Part shown: piece after piece, positions 1,664 through 9,550 of the stretch
Numbering within the stretch: the first letter of the stretch is position 1
Layout: each line of letters starts with the position of its first letter
DNA from: an uncultured Bacillota bacterium
GTDB taxonomy: Bacteria > Bacillota > Clostridia > Peptostreptococcales > Anaerovoracaceae
Length of the DNA: 10,116 nt
Assembly (NCBI GenBank): GCA_947302945.1
Contig: CAMYWZ010000017.1
Coordinates: 1 to 10,116 of the forward strand
Reading direction: 5' to 3'
Notes under the pieces: generated by a model
Database searches by the model: none
The model's input: the letters and a program-made list of their open reading frames with translations, nothing else
Told to the model about the DNA's origin: nothing
Made by a program: the position numbers and the translations under genes

Positions 1664-4306
1664 TCATTTAAGATCGTACCAGTTGTCCGCAGTGTTCTCT
1701 TCGGCGATGAGCTTTACTTTAAGGTCCGCGGCGCTCTCCATGCATTCCTTCAGGAGAGCCGAAACGCCTTCCGCGTCCTTCTTCGGCGCTTCTATGATGA
1801 GTTCGTCGTGGACCTGGAGTATGAGCCTTGCCTGCGGGTATTTTTCGGCCAGAGCATCGTACACTTTGACCATCGCTATCTTGATAATATCGGCAGCGGT
1901 GCCCTGTATAGGCGTGTTCATCGCGAGCCTTTCGCCGAGCTGGCGCACCATGTACTGCTGGGCTTTTATTTCCGGTATGTTCCTTCTGCGCCCGTAGAGC
2001 GTGCGCACGCAGCCGTCCTTTCTGCAGTCGGCCACCTGCTTGTCCATGAAGCTTTTTACGCCTTTGAAGCGTTCGAAATAGTCCTTGATGTACTGCTCAG
2101 CCTGTTTTCTGCTGATGGTGAGCTCTTCAGCCAGGCCGAATCCGCTCATGCCGTAAATTACGCCGAAATTGACAGCTTTCGCATTAGAGCGGAGCTGCGG
2201 GGTAACCTTTTCAAGAGGCACACCGAAGACTTTGGCCGCCGTTTCCTTATGTATGTCGTGGCCGCCGGAGAAGGCTTCGATCAGCTCTTCATCCCCGGAC
2301 ATGTGAGCCATTACGCGCAGTTCTATCTGCGAATAATCTGCGCCGACAAGGGTCTTTTCAGGGCCGCCTGCCGTAAAGGCTTTCCTGAGCTGACGCCCCA
2401 GATCCGTCCTTACGGGGATGTTCTGAAGGTTGGGCTCCGTGCAGCTGATGCGCCCCGTAGCCGTTACCGTCTGCTGGAAGTGTGCGTGTATGCGCCCGTC
2501 TTTTGCGATCAGCGGCAGCATTCCTTCCACATAAGTTCCGTTCAGTTTGGCAAGCGTCCTGTACTCGAGTATCTTTTCTATGATGGGATGAACGCCTTTG
2601 AGCTTTTCCAGGACGTCCGCGCTGGTGGAATAGCCTTTGCTGGTCTTTTTGCCCGAAGGAAGCCCCAGATCTTCGAACAGGACCGTCCCAAGCTGCTGCG
2701 GCGAATTGATGTTGAAGTCTTTTCCGGCAAGCCCGCAGACCTGCTTTTCGAGAACCGCGAGCTTTTCCTTAAGGTCTTTTCCGAAATCCTCTATAGCTTT
2801 CCTGTCGACGGCAAAGCCCTCTTTCTCCATCGAAGCCAGGACCTTGCACAGAGGAAGCTCTATGCCGAAATAGACCTCTGAAAGATCCTCTTCTTTTATC
2901 TGTTTTTCAAGCGCTTCGCAAAGCGCCTTTATGTACGCGAGCTTCTTTCCGGAAGCGCTGCTGTCTTCTGTTTCGAAAAGCGAAAGCTGCACTGGACCTT
3001 CGTCGAGATTTACATGGAAGACTTCAAGGACCAGCTCGGCAAGGCCGGGTGCCTTGGAGCTGGGCGAAAGCACATACCTTGCCAGGGCTCCGTCGGACTC
3101 TGTAACAAAGCCGCTTATATCTGCGCCTTTAGCTGCAAGATAGTAATAGACCTTTCCGAGGCCGAAGCCCGTGAGCTTTGCACGGCTTCCAGAAGCAGCT
3201 TTTACGAAAGCGTCCTCAAATTCCGGCCCGAAGACAAAACAGCCGTTTTCAGCCATTATTTCAGCCTTTTCGAGCTTTGGGACGTCTTTGTGGTTTTCGT
3301 CGCTCAGAACGTCTATTACAAGCCTTTCAGAGGCAAATAAAGCCTCAAGGTCGGCTTCGGTCCCTTTGACAACTGCGGGTATTGCGACGCTTTGGCTTGA
3401 AGTGTTCAAAACCGGTGCTTCAGCAGCGGGCGAAGCCTTCATTTCCTTCAGCAGTTTCGAAAGATAAGTCTTGAACTCCAGCCGGCTGTATATCCTTATG
3501 AGCTCGTCGCTGTCCTGCTTTCCTATCCGAAGATCCTCTATGCTGTAGCTGACAGGGACGTTCTTTACGATAGTGGCAAGGCGCTTTGACATGAGCGCGG
3601 AGGTGCTGCCCTCCTCTATCTTTTCGCGCAGTTTGGGACTGTCGACTTTATCCAGACCGGCCAGCAGGCCTTCGAGCGACCCGAACTGCTGTATCAGCTT
3701 GACAGCGGTCTTTTCGCCTATACCGGGAATTCCCGGAATGTTGTCCGAAGCATCGCCCCTGAGCGCTTTGTAATCTATGAACTGCTCGTGGTCGAAGCCG
3801 TATTCTTCTATCATCGCGGCGTCGTCGTAGAGCTTGAATTCGCTTATTCCTTTTTTCGTGATGACGACCTGGGTCCTGTCAGTCGCAAGCTGCAGGGCGT
3901 CACGGTCCCCGGTGATTATGACCGCGGGCAGACCTGCTTCTTCCGACATCTTCGCGGTAGTTCCTATTATGTCGTCCGCTTCGAAACCGTCCGTTTCGAA
4001 CTGGTAGATGCCCATAGCTTTAAGGATGTCCTTTAGGACCGGAAGTTCCATGGCAAGCTCATCCGGCATCCTGCGCCTGCCGGCTTTGTAATCGCCGTAC
4101 TCCAGGTGCCTGAAAGTAGGCGCTTTGCGGTCATATGCAACGATCATATGAGTCGGCTTGTAGTCAGCCCTGATCTTGAACAGCATGCTCAAAAAGCCGT
4201 AGATCCCCTGGGTGTAAAACCCGTCTTTCGTGATCATAGGCCTTTGTATCGCGTAATACGCTCTGTTCACCAGGCTGTTGCCGTCGATAATGACTATCTT
4301 ATCCAT
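1664..4306 (-). CDS. polA: DNA polymerase I
   Basis: Repair and Okazaki-fragment-processing DNA polymerase of 880 residues. Residues 1-290 are the 5'-3' exonuclease: DGNSLVNRAYYA, YDRKAPTFR, GFEADDIIG (about 108), ITGDRDALQL and the helix-hairpin-helix GDASDNIPGIPGIGEKTA (about 185-201). Residues about 310-440 are the 3'-5' exonuclease fold, but the metal-binding DTE motif is missing (VIDVLSDE instead), so no proofreading is expected, as in Bacillus and Thermus enzymes. The polymerase domain has motif A GADYSQIELR (Asp657), the O-helix with Arg706, Lys710, Phe714 and Tyr718, and motif C QVHDELIIEA (His833, Asp834). I chose the ATG at 4304-4306 because the protein then begins MDKIVIIDGN, as the family does, and GAGG sits six bases upstream; an in-frame ATG 11 codons earlier adds unrelated residues. 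First gene of the polA, hydrolase, coaE group; preceded by a long structured leader. Confidence 0.98.
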   Translation of the reverse strand: MDKIVIIDGNSLVNRAYYAIQRPMITKDGFYTQGIYGFLSMLFKIRADYKPTHMIVAYDRKAPTFRHLEYGDYKAGRRRMPDELAMELPVLKDILKAMGIYQFETDGFEADDIIGTTAKMSEEAGLPAVIITGDRDALQLATDRTQVVITKKGISEFKLYDDAAMIEEYGFDHEQFIDYKALRGDASDNIPGIPGIGEKTAVKLIQQFGSLEGLLAGLDKVDSPKLREKIEEGSTSALMSKRLATIVKNVPVSYSIEDLRIGKQDSDELIRIYSRLEFKTYLSKLLKEMKASPAAEAPVLNTSSQSVAIPAVVKGTEADLEALFASERLVIDVLSDENHKDVPKLEKAEIMAENGCFVFGPEFEDAFVKAASGSRAKLTGFGLGKVYYYLAAKGADISGFVTESDGALARYVLSPSSKAPGLAELVLEVFHVNLDEGPVQLSLFETEDSSASGKKLAYIKALCEALEKQIKEEDLSEVYFGIELPLCKVLASMEKEGFAVDRKAIEDFGKDLKEKLAVLEKQVCGLAGKDFNINSPQQLGTVLFEDLGLPSGKKTSKGYSTSADVLEKLKGVHPIIEKILEYRTLAKLNGTYVEGMLPLIAKDGRIHAHFQQTVTATGRISCTEPNLQNIPVRTDLGRQLRKAFTAGGPEKTLVGADYSQIELRVMAHMSGDEELIEAFSGGHDIHKETAAKVFGVPLEKVTPQLRSNAKAVNFGVIYGMSGFGLAEELTISRKQAEQYIKDYFERFKGVKSFMDKQVADCRKDGCVRTLYGRRRNIPEIKAQQYMVRQLGERLAMNTPIQGTAADIIKIAMVKVYDALAEKYPQARLILQVHDELIIEAPKKDAEGVSALLKECMESAADLKVKLIAEENTADNWYDLK

Positions 4307-4312
4307 AATAAA

Positions 4313-4362
4313 CCTCAAGGACGGTTCTAAAGTTCGCACCTAAGGGACGGTCCTTTTGGTGC
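4313..4362 (-). promoter_or_regulatory. polA leader: hairpin plus partly masked ribosome site
   Basis: Directly visible on the minus strand: a hairpin pairing GCACC (4362-4358) with GGUGC (4340-4336), with inner pairs AA/UU and GGA/UCC around a CCG loop. Downstream, AACC (4326-4323) can pair with GGUU (4314-4311), covering half of the polA GAGG site at 4316-4313. The nine bases UUAGAACCG at 4330-4322 repeat a segment of the upstream structured RNA (4446-4438), so the same 5' arm (CGGUUCU, 4499-4493) could pair with either copy. There is no U-tract, so this is not a terminator. Control of polA translation by this region is inference. Confidence 0.4.
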
Positions 4363-4381
4363 CGTTATATTGCCAGGTTTT

Positions 4382-4538
4382 CTGCGGCAGTATGGTTACT
4401 GTCCGGACACGCTCCCACTTGCGGGGGCCCCTCCCAGCGGTTCTAAGCTCTGTCGGCGCCCTTAGTCGTTGGTTTTGGCTTGCCAATCGCTAAGAACCGG
4501 GTTCCCCGATAGTCCGTCCAGCAACCATACTGCCGCAG
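4382..4538 (-). ncRNA. Unidentified structured RNA upstream of polA
   Basis: About 157 nt, not assigned to any family I recognise. Bases 4538-4519 pair with 4382-4401 over 20 consecutive positions: 19 Watson-Crick pairs and one G-U (4522/4398). The stem continues through a tandem G.A step (4518-4517 against 4402-4403) and five more pairs (4516-4512 with 4404-4408). Inside are three arms: UCGGG/CCCGG with a GAA loop (4509-4497), UUCUUAGC with GCUUAGAA (4496-4489 with 4448-4441, one U.U), and CGCU/AGCG (4439-4436 with 4413-4410), making a multi-branch junction. The G-U pair and the G.A step would be A.C and U.C mismatches on the other strand, which fixes the minus orientation. A TATACT box ends six bases before the stem, so transcription should begin at its foot. 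No U-tract follows it, so it is either the 5' part of the polA mRNA or is processed from it. Fold drawn by hand. Confidence 0.65.
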
Positions 4539-4544
4539 CTTAAT

Positions 4545-4573
4545 AGTATAAAACAAAGCATCTTCCCTGACTC
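4545..4573 (-). promoter_or_regulatory. Promoter for the structured RNA and polA
   Basis: A TATACT -10 box (4550-4545; five of six consensus bases) lies just upstream of the first base of the long closing stem at 4538, so a start at about 4540-4538 would place the RNA 5' end exactly at the foot of the stem. The hexamer 17 bases further up is GAGTCA (4573-4568), a poor -35. A better-looking TTGTCA (4582-4577) is 26 bases away, too far. The -10 and its position are convincing; the -35 is not. Confidence 0.5.
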
Positions 4574-4632
4574 GGGTGACAATAAGGGGGATCGCTGGGT
4601 TTTTCCTCAAGAAAAAGCCAGTGGATGGATGC
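4558..4632 (+). other. Foldable spacer between two RNA genes; orientation uncertain
   Basis: The stretch between the 6S RNA end and the next promoter has no protein gene but can fold. GCATC (4558-4562) pairs with GATGC (4628-4632). Inside, ATCGCTGG (4591-4598) pairs with CCAGTGGAT (4618-4626) and TTTTTC (4600-4605) with GAAAAA (4611-4616). Several pairs of the lower stem are G-U only if the plus strand is transcribed and become A.C mismatches on the minus strand, which hints at a plus-strand RNA antisense to the gene order. No U-tract follows and no clear plus promoter was found, apart from an AT-rich TATAAA (4547-4552). It may also be only untranslated leader DNA. Confidence 0.3.
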
Positions 4633-4659
4633 CTTGATGGCAGGACCTGTGCGGCTTAC

Positions 4660-4680
4660 AAAAAAATACCCCAGAATGCC
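4660..4680 (-). terminator. U-tract at the 6S RNA 3' end
   Basis: On the minus strand the 3' arm of the 6S closing stem is followed directly by seven Us (4666-4660). The closing stem therefore also serves as an intrinsic terminator, ending transcripts from the 6S or yebC promoters before polA. This fits polA having its own promoter further down. Because the two stem arms are about 150 bases apart, the efficiency of termination is uncertain. Confidence 0.5.
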
Positions 4681-4848
4681 GGTGGGCTATAATTCACGCC
4701 CTATCATTTTGATAGGTGGGATGCCTGCTATTATGCCTCTGTCTTCCACTGATCTTATGAGGCCTGACATAACGCATAAAATGACGTCCGGCTTCCCTGT
4801 GTTGAACTGTAGGTTGAATTAATGCCCTGTCGAACACCCCAGGATATT
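4662..4848 (-). ncRNA. ssrS: 6S RNA
   Basis: Regulatory RNA that mimics an open promoter and binds the main sigma factor holoenzyme. About 187 nt, the usual size. The closing stem pairs 4846-4833 with 4667-4680 over 14 positions, six of them G-U, all of which would be A.C mismatches on the plus strand, so orientation is secure. The 5' side reads GGGGUGUUCG, matching the GUGUUCG/AUGUUCG of known 6S RNAs, and the 3' side reads CCGGCAUUCUGGGGUAUU, close to the conserved 3' arm. A second stem (GGGC/GCCC, then UAAUUC/GAAUUA; 4827-4816 with 4684-4695) leads to the large central bubble. On the bubble's 3' strand sits the hairpin CCUAUCA/UGAUAGG (4716-4700), a usual 6S feature. It starts about ten bases after the yebC stop; any own promoter must lie in the end of yebC, where I see only a weak TAAAAC. 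Seven Us (4666-4660) follow the closing stem. Assignment is from motifs and fold, without a covariance search. Confidence 0.9.
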
Positions 4849-4857
4849 TTTTAAGTT

Positions 4858-5586
4858 TTACTCCTCGCCGTACAGATCGACTCCGCAGTTGGTGTAGACC
4901 TTCTGCACGTCGTCATCATCCTCCAGGATCTCTATCATCTTGCGCAGCGTGCCGAGCTGATGATCGTCCGGCGTGGCTGTCATGGACGGTACCTGTTCGA
5001 TATCGGCTTCCATGACTTCAAGACCTGCGTCCTTAACAGCTTTAACTACGTCATTGAAAACTTCCGGAGCGCAGAGTACGTCGAAGCTGTCGTCGTACTC
5101 GACTATGTCTTCCGCTCCTGCGTCGAGGGCGACCATCATGAGGTCGTCTTCGGTGACGCCTGTTTCCTTGTCGAATACAAGTACTCCCTTTGTGTCGAAC
5201 ATGTAGGATACGCAGCCCGGTGTGCCGAGGTTGCCTCCAAATTTGTCGAATGCATGTTTGACGGAGGATGTGGTCCTGTTCTTGTTGTCTGTGAGCGCTT
5301 CGACTATTACAGCGACGCCGCCTGCGCCGTAGCCTTCGAACTTGAGCTCTTCGTAGGTCTCTCCTGCGAGTTCTCCTGTGCCCTTCTTGATGGCTCTTGT
5401 GATGTTGTCGTTCGGAAGGCCGGCTGCCTTTGCTTTATCTATAGCCGCGCGGAGCGCCGGGTTATAATCCGGATCTCCTCCTGCCTTGGCTGCTACTGTT
5501 ATCAGTCTTGCGTATTTGGTAAAACTTGCTGCTCTCTTTGAATCCTGAGCGGCTTTTCTGCCGGCGATGGTGCCGTGTCTGCCCAT
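4858..5586 (-). CDS. yebC: YebC/PmpR/TACO1-family protein
   Basis: A 242-residue member of the YebC family, the full usual length. Long annotated as a DNA-binding transcriptional regulator, the family includes members shown to act at the ribosome in translating difficult stretches such as polyproline; which applies here is unknown. Recognisable segments are the basic N-terminus with KAAQDSKRAASFTKYARLI, then NPALRAAIDKAKAAGLPNDN and ITRAIKKGTGE, and YEELKFEGYGAGGVAVIVEA followed by LTDNKNRT, which are family landmarks. The first residues are MGRHGTIAGRK rather than the more common AGHSKWANIKHRK, marking a divergent subgroup. AAGGGAG lies nine bases before the ATG. A fair promoter stands at 5621-5649. 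Its stop codon is about ten bases from the start of the 6S RNA, and the last codons may hold that RNA's promoter. Confidence 0.96.
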   Translation of the reverse strand: MGRHGTIAGRKAAQDSKRAASFTKYARLITVAAKAGGDPDYNPALRAAIDKAKAAGLPNDNITRAIKKGTGELAGETYEELKFEGYGAGGVAVIVEALTDNKNRTTSSVKHAFDKFGGNLGTPGCVSYMFDTKGVLVFDKETGVTEDDLMMVALDAGAEDIVEYDDSFDVLCAPEVFNDVVKAVKDAGLEVMEADIEQVPSMTATPDDHQLGTLRKMIEILEDDDDVQKVYTNCGVDLYGEE

Positions 5587-5657: not shown

Positions 5658-6920
5658 TTATCTGTACTTGCCGTAGGTCTTGATCGTGTCGAACATTGCT
5701 TCGACATTCTCTCTCTTTGCGATGTCCAGACCGGCGCTGGTCCTGAAGATGAATCCGCCGCCTGCCGCGCAGTCGTCTATGATCTTTTTGACGTTGTCTA
5801 CGACTTTTTCCTTCTTCTCGAAGTACAGCTGGCCGGCCGGGAATCCTCCGGTGATGGTGGCCTTGTCGCCGAGCTTCTTCTTTACGAGGTCCATAGGCGT
5901 ATACTCGAACGCGTACACGATAGGCCCGTCTGGGATGTCCCTGAGAAGATCCAGCCTGCTCTCGTAGTGTCCTTCGCAGAAGACGCTGGGGATGAGGCCT
6001 ACGCTCATGATGGCTTCTATGATCTCCTGCAGGTGCCTCCAGTAATACTTCTGGTAGAATTCCTCTGAGAGGAAGCCGTCCATGCCGCGGTGGAGAGTCA
6101 TGTTGACGAGCTTGCCGTCGTACTTGTGATCCGGGTTCATGTGCTTGATCTTCCAGATCATTTCCTTCTGGTTCTCTTCGATGAAGCGGTCTACGGCCTC
6201 AGTGTTCTCGTAGAGGTCCGTGATGCAGTTGAGGGAGCCTCTGAATTCGTCGCCCCACTCGTCGTAAGGAACAGCTGCCTTGCCGTAGCCTATGCTGGGA
6301 TAACCGAGATCTTCGATCTCCTTGCGGACCCTGCGGGCTGTGGCGTTGCACTCCTTGAACATCTCGTCTATCTTCCAGCAGGTCTTGATCATCTCCTTCA
6401 TCTCGGGTTTTGAGAACTCGATAGCCAGAGCCTGCGGAACGCGGCTGGAATACGGGATATTGAATTTCCTCAGGGGCTCGTAAAGATCGCAGAGGTTGGG
6501 CATGCACTTGGTAAGCCTCCACGTGCCGTTGTCGTCGAAGAACATGTCGATGTCGTCGTCCTCAAGAGGCGGCTTTTCTATGAACTGCTGTATGGAATTG
6601 TCCGGTACGTTGTAGCCGGGCCTTCCGGACCATGCCATGAACTTCGGGGAAACGAGCTCCATGACCTGTCCCTGGCCTGCGTAGCCTACGAAGCCCGGAG
6701 CAGTATCCGGATCGTACTTTTCAAGGAATTTGACAGACGCGTCCTTGCTCTTTTCGAGCGTGGTGTCGTAGATGCATTCCTTTACGGTATAACCGGCTTC
6801 GATGACGGAGAAGATGCCTCCGCTGACGTTTATGGGAACTCTGTCCGGCTCTTTATGAGCGATAGCAGTATATATCCTGTTCTTTTTCTCTTCGTATTTT
6901 TTTCTGTTCTCTTCTGTCAT
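5658..6920 (-). CDS. URO-D/MtaA-fold methyltransferase-like protein
   Basis: A 420-residue protein with the uroporphyrinogen decarboxylase (URO-D) fold, a superfamily that in anaerobes is mostly made of corrinoid-dependent methyltransferases (MtaA, CmuA and O-demethylase partners) rather than haem enzymes. Evidence: the N-terminal RIYTAIAHKEPDRVPI segment typical of the group, an alpha/beta barrel-like pattern, and the C-terminal ITGGFPAGQLYFEKKEKVVD ... AAGGGFIFRTSAGLDIAKREN. A possible metal pair is Cys315 and His318 (CEGH), where MtaA-type proteins have a His-x-Cys; the Gly-Cys normally seen before the ENxxA segment is Ser-Ala here, so the usual third zinc ligand is absent. No corrinoid protein or haem gene is adjacent. 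AAAGGA lies about eight bases before the ATG. Divergent from the MATE pump and probably co-regulated with it. Substrate unknown. Confidence 0.8.
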   Translation of the reverse strand: MTEENRKKYEEKKNRIYTAIAHKEPDRVPINVSGGIFSVIEAGYTVKECIYDTTLEKSKDASVKFLEKYDPDTAPGFVGYAGQGQVMELVSPKFMAWSGRPGYNVPDNSIQQFIEKPPLEDDDIDMFFDDNGTWRLTKCMPNLCDLYEPLRKFNIPYSSRVPQALAIEFSKPEMKEMIKTCWKIDEMFKECNATARRVRKEIEDLGYPSIGYGKAAVPYDEWGDEFRGSLNCITDLYENTEAVDRFIEENQKEMIWKIKHMNPDHKYDGKLVNMTLHRGMDGFLSEEFYQKYYWRHLQEIIEAIMSVGLIPSVFCEGHYESRLDLLRDIPDGPIVYAFEYTPMDLVKKKLGDKATITGGFPAGQLYFEKKEKVVDNVKKIIDDCAAGGGFIFRTSAGLDIAKRENVEAMFDTIKTYGKYR

Positions 6921-8464: not shown

Positions 8465-8502
8465 CAGCGCGGCAGCAAAGAGCTATCGCGCTGTTTTATT
8501 TT
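8465..8502. terminator. Bidirectional intrinsic terminator between convergent genes
   Basis: CAGCGCGGCAGC (8465-8476), loop AAAGA, GCTATCGCGCTG (8482-8493): eleven of twelve positions paired including one G-U, followed by TTTTATTTT (8494-8502) for the MATE gene. Read on the minus strand, the same GC stem is followed three bases later by eight Us (8461-8454), so it can also stop the convergent PI-PLC transcript. The 3' arm lies within the last codons of the PI-PLC gene, whose stop codon is at 8483-8485. Confidence 0.88.
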
Positions 8503-9490
8503 GTGAATAAATGTGTTCCGCCAGGGCGGCATTCGAGAAATCGACTATTATCCACTGCTTCGGGTAAACCGACAGATCTTCGTCAAGAAGATACTTGTTC
8601 AGCGTTCTCGCGTATTTGTAGGGATGGCCGAATTTCGGAGTGCCGTTGGTGCTGAGGAAACTAAGCCTTATGAAATCTCTTCCGGGGTCTGCGGCAGCAA
8701 GGCCGGCCTTAAACGCCGTCCATTTGTCCTCAGTATCGTACTTGTAGCGGTCCTGGACGATCAGGCTGAAGCTGCCGCACTCTATCGTTTCCGCATTCAG
8801 GCTGACGTCGCTGTTTGCGCCCTGCTCAGGCCAGTTCATGTATATACCTGCCCTTTCCCCAAGACCGCACACGTCGTCAAAGCGTCTCATAAGGACTATC
8901 TTTCCCCTGCATTCTCCTAATGTTGGGAGGGTATCGGTAAGCAGCCACTTGTCCTGTCCCTTGCTGATATATGAATCAAGCAGGAGCTGGAAGGATCTGA
9001 GGTCGCTGCCCTGCTCCATTTTTACGGCAAAAATGATGGTCTCGGACGGGTAGTCGGAAAGGAAGGAATAACACTGTGCGAGTACGCTCCCAAGATCAAG
9101 GTCTTTTGACCATGGCACCCAGCTTTCCTTGCACTTGCAGAACCCGTGGTACAGCAGAAGCTTGTCCTCGTTTCCCACTCTCTTTACGCCAAGGCGTATG
9201 TCAAGATAGCGGAATCCGTCGTCCAGCTGCGTTCTGATGTCCGATGCCTGGCATTTCGCGAAATATGGCAGCACCACGTTGTTTGAAGCGCTGTCGTGAG
9301 TTCCGGGGATGGCGATGTCGGCTATGACGGTCTCGTCTGCAACTATGGACATCCAGCTTTCCGAGCCTTCGGCCTTTACATTCTCATGCCTGATAAAAAG
9401 CGGTGAAATGAAAAGCCAGGCTGCAGCTATGAGCACTATGACAATGATAATCGATATAATGGTTTTAAGAGTTTTCAATACTTTAACCAT
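8483..9490 (-). CDS. Membrane-anchored PI-PLC-like phosphodiesterase
   Basis: Belongs to the phosphatidylinositol-specific phospholipase C (X-domain) family, which cleaves phosphoinositides or inositol-glycan anchors outside the cell; the true substrate here is unknown. Numbered from the chosen start (335 residues): a basic N-terminus and one long hydrophobic segment (about 10-33) form a signal anchor or uncleaved signal, followed by the catalytic domain. Key residues are in place: IPGTHDSAS (His65, Asp66), RYLDIRLG (Asp97, Arg99) and LLLYHGF (His115), matching the Bacillus PI-PLC His32/Asp33, Asp67/Arg69 and His82. I prefer the ATG at 9488-9490 because it opens a normal signal anchor, though its GGAG is 15 bases away. 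An in-frame ATG at 9548-9550 would add 20 residues; it lacks a ribosome site but lies one base after the upstream peptide's stop, so reinitiation there is possible. The 3' end overlaps the MATE terminator. Confidence 0.85.
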   Translation of the reverse strand: MVKVLKTLKTIISIIIVIVLIAAAWLFISPLFIRHENVKAEGSESWMSIVADETVIADIAIPGTHDSASNNVVLPYFAKCQASDIRTQLDDGFRYLDIRLGVKRVGNEDKLLLYHGFCKCKESWVPWSKDLDLGSVLAQCYSFLSDYPSETIIFAVKMEQGSDLRSFQLLLDSYISKGQDKWLLTDTLPTLGECRGKIVLMRRFDDVCGLGERAGIYMNWPEQGANSDVSLNAETIECGSFSLIVQDRYKYDTEDKWTAFKAGLAAADPGRDFIRLSFLSTNGTPKFGHPYKYARTLNKYLLDEDLSVYPKQWIIVDFSNAALAEHIYSQNKTAR

Positions 9491-9521
9491 ACACGTTTTC
9501 TGTTGCTCCGAAAAAGGGGGA

Positions 9522-9550
9522 CTTATAATAAGTGATACGCCCGGTATCAT
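9522..9550 (-). promoter_or_regulatory. Possible promoter of the PI-PLC gene
   Basis: Minus-strand ATGATA (9550-9545; four of six), 17-base spacer, TATAAG (9527-9522; five of six). Predicted start near 9515, upstream of the preferred ATG at 9490. The -10 lies in a small palindrome, ACTTATAATAAGT (9521-9533), and ATAAGTG occurs again at 9554-9560, so a repressor site is conceivable. If real, it argues against the longer PI-PLC start at 9550, which would then lie upstream of the transcript. Confidence 0.4.

Follow-up and report, generated by a model that had tools for sequence, protein, structure and literature searches.

The window, meaning the whole stretch of 10,116 nucleotides that was analysed, carries on its minus strand a yebC/TACO1-family gene, a 6S RNA and polA, and three repeats lie between the 6S RNA and polA. 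The subject of this analysis is one of those repeats, the element at 4382–4538. Read along the minus strand, the order is yebC, 6S RNA, the 4555–4654 repeat, the element, the 4333–4364 palindrome and polA:

4858–5586, minus strand: yebC/TACO1-family gene
4664–4848, minus strand: 6S RNA (RF00013, 57.7 bits, cut-off 46.4)
4555–4654, minus strand: second repeat, about 93–100 bp, seen by BLAST in its own genome
4382–4538, minus strand: the element, 157 bp, one copy of a dispersed family, recognised by its fold, its BLAST copies and a match to covariance model R1
4333–4364, minus strand: short palindromic repeat containing GGACCGTCCC, seen by BLAST in its own genome
1664–4306, minus strand: polA, with its ATG at 4306

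Elsewhere in the window, 8483–9550 on the minus strand encodes a protein with a PI-PLC X domain (PF00388, 29.7 bits, cut-off 23.1).

Does the element belong to polA? An earlier sequence-only reading placed it at the head of the polA transcript, as a riboswitch-like regulatory leader of polA and a CoA gene (polA-coaE). The element does lie on the same strand as polA, the distance of 75 bases to the polA ATG is confirmed, and nothing terminator-like is found on the minus strand within 4200–5000, as that reading had said. However, its place at the head of the transcript is not confirmed: the 6S RNA lies upstream of the element, and eight polA loci, recovered from ten other genomes of the genus, all lack the element when searched with R1. 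The expected homologues upstream of polA in related genomes are thus missing, and copies elsewhere adjoin other genes, in both orientations. A cis-regulatory leader is thereby refuted as a conserved function and has only the slimmest chance of being right, although a private effect on polA-coaE in this strain alone is possible. The best reading is that any influence of the element on polA is incidental.

In six of the eight congeneric loci the 6S RNA also lies between yebC and polA, almost directly before polA; the remaining two, with yebC–polA gaps of 50 and −3 bp, gave no 6S match. The gap measures 551 bp in the window but 205–230 bp in the six loci with 6S RNA, and about 320–345 bp have therefore been added at the window locus. 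This added DNA is made largely of the three repeats. The 4555–4654 repeat gives 19 BLAST rows in its own genome, the window row included, and none in 10 further congeneric genomes. In several places it lies within tens of bases of element copies, and at C31 of the same genome it abuts the 3' half of an element. The palindrome has 35 further BLAST rows in its own genome, some of which are the two arms of one place; it recurs in this way even though the assembly of that genome (72% complete) yielded no Y1 transposase.

Folding of the minus strand reproduced the architecture that had been described from the letters, namely a 20-bp closing stem, a tandem G.A step, five further pairs and a branched interior:

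4519–4538, minus strand: 5' arm of closing stem P1, 20 bp, free in sequence, with pairing retained across the family
4382–4401, minus strand: 3' arm of P1, pairing with 4538–4519
4518–4517 with 4403–4402, minus strand: tandem G.A step, from the fold, letters checked
4512–4516, minus strand: 5' side of the inner P1 stem, CGGAC, following the tandem G.A and pairing with GUCCG at 4404–4408
4477–4498, minus strand: 5' side of the P2 core, GGUUCUUAGCGAUUGGCAAGCC, strongly conserved
4437–4459, minus strand: 3' side of the P2 core, GCGCCGACAGAGCUUAGAACCGC, strongly conserved
4411–4418, minus strand: P3 hairpin with a GNRA loop, GU-GGGA-GC in the window copy

The minimum free energy of 4382–4538 on this strand is −85.7 kcal/mol, against −53.8 ± 4.2 kcal/mol for 200 shuffled sequences (z −7.65), none of which folded equally well. 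The plus strand also folds (z −6.46), which is expected since the element is a long inverted repeat. A search with 4227 Rfam covariance models, a check called for earlier, gave nothing over the element at E ≤ 10, and nothing over the copies at nine further loci at E ≤ 1. The description of a large structured, RNA-like stretch that matches no known family thus holds. No open reading frame of 80 amino acids or more overlaps it.

The boundaries come from copies in the same genome. The alignment with a 91% identical copy (C54) spans exactly 4382–4538, and that with another (C67) extends only 8 and 4 bases past it; these coordinates therefore correspond to the repeat unit. R1 recovers 4384–4538 of the window at 120.2 bits (E 8.6e-32), the window copy being itself one of the 59 rows from which the model was built. 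Those rows were picked by hand among 81 copies remaining after an 85% redundancy filter, with 22 left out.

How widespread is the element? In its own genome it gives 12 BLAST rows. Two of these represent the opposite arms of a single copy, several cover a copy only in part, and three begin with a contig's first base, a place where a repeat would break an assembly. A degenerate pattern of 23 bases matched 107 stretches in genome contigs from Clostridia, Clostridiales, Mogibacterium or Bacillota. The same pattern had no exact match in viral contigs, and BLAST of phage and plasmid records gave no match to the element; an origin in phages or plasmids was set aside on these two grounds. With R1, and at most ten candidates scored per genome, copies were found in 86 of the 296 genomes of the window's bacterial family, belonging to 27 of its 92 genera. 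Ten chosen carriers, for each of which 150 of 268–534 first-look candidates were scored, held at least 4, 17, 8, 6, 7, 11, 18, 9, 12 and 9 copies. In an order-wide sample of 198 genomes, seven had an R1 match, all of them in the window's bacterial family. The range found so far is accordingly a single bacterial family, together with a few Clostridia MAGs that are unplaced.

The copies share a structure more than they share a sequence at their ends. RNAalifold applied to a MAFFT alignment (A1) recovered no more than 21 pairs. Sequence alignment of arms this variable probably fails, and the structure of R1 was therefore taken from the fold of a single copy (L012), with some pairs removed by hand. 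In the resulting alignment of 59 rows (A2), standard pairs occupy 77.5% of cells; shuffling the partners lowers this to 64.8% and sliding them to 34–43%, although the structure, being taken from one of the aligned sequences, is favoured over the slid control. Cells in which both partners have changed number 446, against 203 ± 12 in shuffles, and all 17 closing-stem pairs in A2 vary on both sides; further pair types are no more frequent than in shuffles (111 against 108). A comparison that uses no structure model agrees: against a background of arms exchanged between copies, the native arms of 98 among 115 non-redundant copies pair above the 99th percentile. Across the family the closing stem is about 22 bp long and differs in sequence from copy to copy while its pairing is retained. 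At orthologous sites (groups B, C and D, judged by eye), the stem shifts fast, by paired substitutions or wholesale, and the core less so. That core, with its GNRA-capped hairpin, is near-invariant and is enclosed by the closing stem. Of 154 distinct copies, 141 have a GNRA loop in P3, and longer, empty or misaligned loops are among the remaining 13. This is a structurally conserved family, in which a hypervariable but paired closing stem surrounds a strongly conserved three-way-junction core.

Which strand is constrained? The sequence-only reading had assigned the fold to the minus strand, an assignment that the GNRA loop and the mismatches across the family favour, even though the plus strand folds as well. 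When isolated stem mismatches are classed through a symmetric DNA alignment, the element's own strand shows 55 of the G.U type and 17 of the A.C type in 125 copies, and 43 against 16 in 98 copies after similar arms are removed (p 6e-4). A first count of all mismatches in 60 copies gave a weaker 53 to 34, and the stricter filter was chosen after that count had been seen. Sorted by neighbouring genes with crude ORF calls, the G.U to A.C ratio is 16:4 in antisense copies (31 copies) and 12:4 in mixed ones (33 copies), while sense copies alone give 8:5 (22 copies), which is not significant. Because the bias is present in antisense copies, the apparent source of the constraint is the folded strand of the element itself and not host mRNA. 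Within the core, the element's own strand is favoured by columns 54/90, with 28 rows of U.G and 27 of C-G; columns 44/100 of A2, non-standard in 16 of 59 rows and C.A by eye, oppose it. There is thus moderately strong reason to think that what is constrained is one folded strand, namely that of the element itself (the minus strand in the window), whatever the orientation of the neighbours. RNA and folded single-stranded DNA would account for the signal equally well, and a strand difference in mutation could, less probably, be its source. The strand preference is accordingly put forward less firmly than the fold, the dispersal or the extra DNA at the polA locus.

These data bear directly on a simpler proposal, that the element is a REP- or BIME-like hairpin that folds within host mRNA and stabilises or punctuates operons. 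By eye, several copies do lie between genes of apparent housekeeping operons (atp, ribosomal protein, adk, htpG), as such hairpins would. However, the G.U bias tracks the strand of the element, at 16:4 in copies antisense to both neighbours, and the core exceeds a hairpin in complexity; the proposal is accordingly improbable, though somewhat better placed than the polA leader.

The surroundings of the copies are varied. Among 115 copies, 24 are sense to their neighbours, 36 antisense, 20 in convergent and 18 in divergent gaps, and 17 at contig edges, by crude ORF calls. Recurrent neighbour genes look like housekeeping or transport genes, judged by eye from the protein starts of the 25 largest groups, among which no transposase or other partner was recognised. 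A TATACT box had been proposed as the promoter of the element; among 123 copies no −10/−35 is common to that place, and no conserved promoter is found at the copies' edges. Three copies have other long-armed structured stretches nested in or beside them, by eye (L013 about 690–910, L117 about 5925–6015, L076 about 1610–1695).

The family is multi-copy, and its members are present or absent at orthologous sites, several such sites being empty in a relative. Among the ortholog pairs listed, which include duplicate records of one genome, 59 have the element in the same orientation and 19 do not. The 19 stem from two loci. At one intergenic site the element lies one way round in L016, L035 and L013 and the other way round in L029 and L041, which are from different genomes; L066 and L092 may be independent insertions.

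How does such an element move? One trace comes from a lineage, here called subfamily S, that is marked by GTAAC..TTCAGTC ends. Of its 16 aligned copies, 15 have a left end like GTAACNRTTCAG (at most two mismatches), the match in L053 falling elsewhere than the aligned position; a right end (at most three mismatches) is present in 11. IS66 elements make 8-bp target duplications. Perfect 8-bp flanking duplications are present in four of the 11 copies with both ends (L069, L085, L093 and L139), and L074 has one shifted by a single base; the flanks match at seven of eight positions in L091 and L142 and at six of eight in L107, and L043, L103 and L121, which also have both ends, show no 8-bp duplication. 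Nine chosen genomes were tested for an IS66-family transposase: it was present in three of the four tested genomes that hold subfamily S and had no match in G000 (the window's own genome), G005, G006, G271 or G182. The same terminal sequence occurs near an IS66 transposase in L250 and L251. With one mismatch allowed, it occurs 28, 12, 75 and 7 times in four subfamily S genomes, against 1, 0, 0 and 0 occurrences of a reversed control pattern. The genome with 75, a 3.1-Mb MAG (G454) that holds L045, looks as if it has undergone a large MITE expansion.

Copies outside subfamily S had no conspicuous target duplications. Flanking 8-mers are shared in 26 of 145 copies, subfamily S included, compared with 62 of 717 swapped flanks, mostly at offsets that do not match by eye. 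In the window copy and its relatives in the same genome, IS66-type ends are not visible by eye, and the copies of that genome match one another up to the ends of the closing stem.

Is there an enzyme that goes with the family as a whole? Genomes with a Y1 transposase number 39 among the 86 carriers and 85 among the 210 non-carriers (p 0.44); for a TnpB domain the figures are 18 of 86 and 36 of 210 (p 0.51), and for a reverse transcriptase 36 of 86 and 67 of 210 (p 0.11), so that none of the three is enriched; these co-occurrence tests are rough because the genomes are related and many are incomplete. Twenty-two of the 86 carriers have none of the three. G005, 98% complete and with 17 copies, has no Y1, TnpB, reverse transcriptase or IS66 transposase. 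Y1 transposases were likewise missing from G000, G002, G003 and G004, and TnpB from G000, G002–G004, G006, G009 and G010, with G005 negative in both series; G000 has one reverse transcriptase match.

That one match, together with a unit boundary that coincides with the stem end in C54 and nearly so in C67, the folding constraint on the element's own strand and the presence of copies with no promoter, is what a SINE-like retroelement might leave behind. The folded RNA itself would then be mobile, reverse-transcribed in trans, with the ends of the unit set by the ends of the closing stem. Yet reverse transcriptases are not enriched among carriers, and none is found in G005 despite its 17 copies, which makes this route doubtful at best.

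The copies might instead be free-standing small RNAs of the host with a cellular function, forming a multi-copy family dispersed by old duplication. Such a family would explain why the core is so strongly conserved across many genera, why it keeps a GNRA loop, why the own-strand bias persists even in antisense copies, and why the same locus is occupied across species in 59 same-orientation ortholog pairs (duplicate genome records included); it would also sit well with the 17 copies of G005, which has none of the four enzyme families tested. It fits less easily with the lack of a conserved promoter at the edges of 123 copies, the patchy presence in 86 of 296 genomes, the empty orthologous sites and the 8-bp duplications of subfamily S. 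Host small RNAs are thus a minority reading, unlikely but the best placed of the rivals. The sequence-only reading had offered, besides the leader, a free-standing RNA that precedes polA by chance; this came nearer the mark than the leader did but missed the multi-copy, dispersed nature of the element and the two repeats that adjoin it.

Taken together, these results make it reasonably probable that 4382–4538 is a copy of a non-autonomous, dispersed, mostly intergenic family of elements of about 140–160 bp with a folded, RNA-like core. How might a non-autonomous element of this kind work? The closing stem would bring its two ends together, and the P2 core with the GNRA-capped P3 might form a platform recognised by a trans-acting protein, on RNA or on single-stranded DNA. 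The element may be transcribed, and it would be copied or moved by a factor encoded elsewhere. In one lineage, the element appears to be carried by IS66-type ends with 8-bp target duplications. A fuller version of this scheme, in which the family consists of mobile, structured noncoding RNAs of about 150 nucleotides with a strongly conserved, probably protein-binding core and with ends that vary freely in sequence yet always pair, spreading as a folded strand through a trans-acting enzyme and captured in one lineage by an IS66-type transposon, is offered as speculation, and the odds are against it as a whole.

Dispersed repeats in bacteria are mostly plain palindromes or MITEs, in which the ends are conserved and the middle is free. 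The present family reverses that pattern, since its ends are free but paired and its core is ornate and conserved. The folding constraint seems, moreover, to be tied to the element's own strand, which raises the question of which enzyme or RNP reads the fold. There is also a practical lesson: where a structured intergenic RNA lies upstream of a gene, its dispersal should be checked before it is named a leader.

How does the family compare with known systems? HEARO/IscB omegaRNA and TnpB reRNA are structured RNAs on mobile elements, sometimes with no neighbouring ORF. The present element differs from these in that it has no Rfam match at E ≤ 10, its carriers show no association with the TnpB domain, and its long ends are paired. 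Subfamily S resembles an IS66-type MITE in its ends, its 8-bp duplications and the IS66 transposases that accompany the same terminal sequence in its genomes, whereas the window copy and its relatives in G000 lack such ends by eye and five tested genomes of the window's bacterial family gave no match to the transposase. Literature searches on Mogibacterium structured RNA, on covarying miniature inverted repeats and on Anaerovoracaceae noncoding RNA returned no description of the element.

In size and style the family is similar to the bcr1-type repeats, which two papers (PMC6542083, PMC2267715) describe as dispersed, structured, mobile-looking repeats of about 150 bp confined to one taxon; the likeness is one of description, and the taxon is another. 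The bcr repeats belong to the Bacillus cereus group and are tied to a TTTAT motif (PMC6542083). Nearest among the published descriptions compared is, in PMC11109978, the class of mobile or repeat sequence candidates (MRSCs), of which its Table 1 lists 250 and which are thought to be selfish. MRSCs are multi-copy, have no consistent orientation to their neighbours, possess a structure backed by covariation and often lie beside transposase, integrase, nuclease or helicase genes (PMC11109978). The worked example of that paper, MRSC-65-2, consists of one long stem and a short repeated motif and is found in diverse phyla. By description, the present element is set apart from that example by its three-way junction with a conserved core, and it is like the class in being multi-copy (4–18 copies per chosen carrier), inconsistent in orientation and supported in its structure by covariation.
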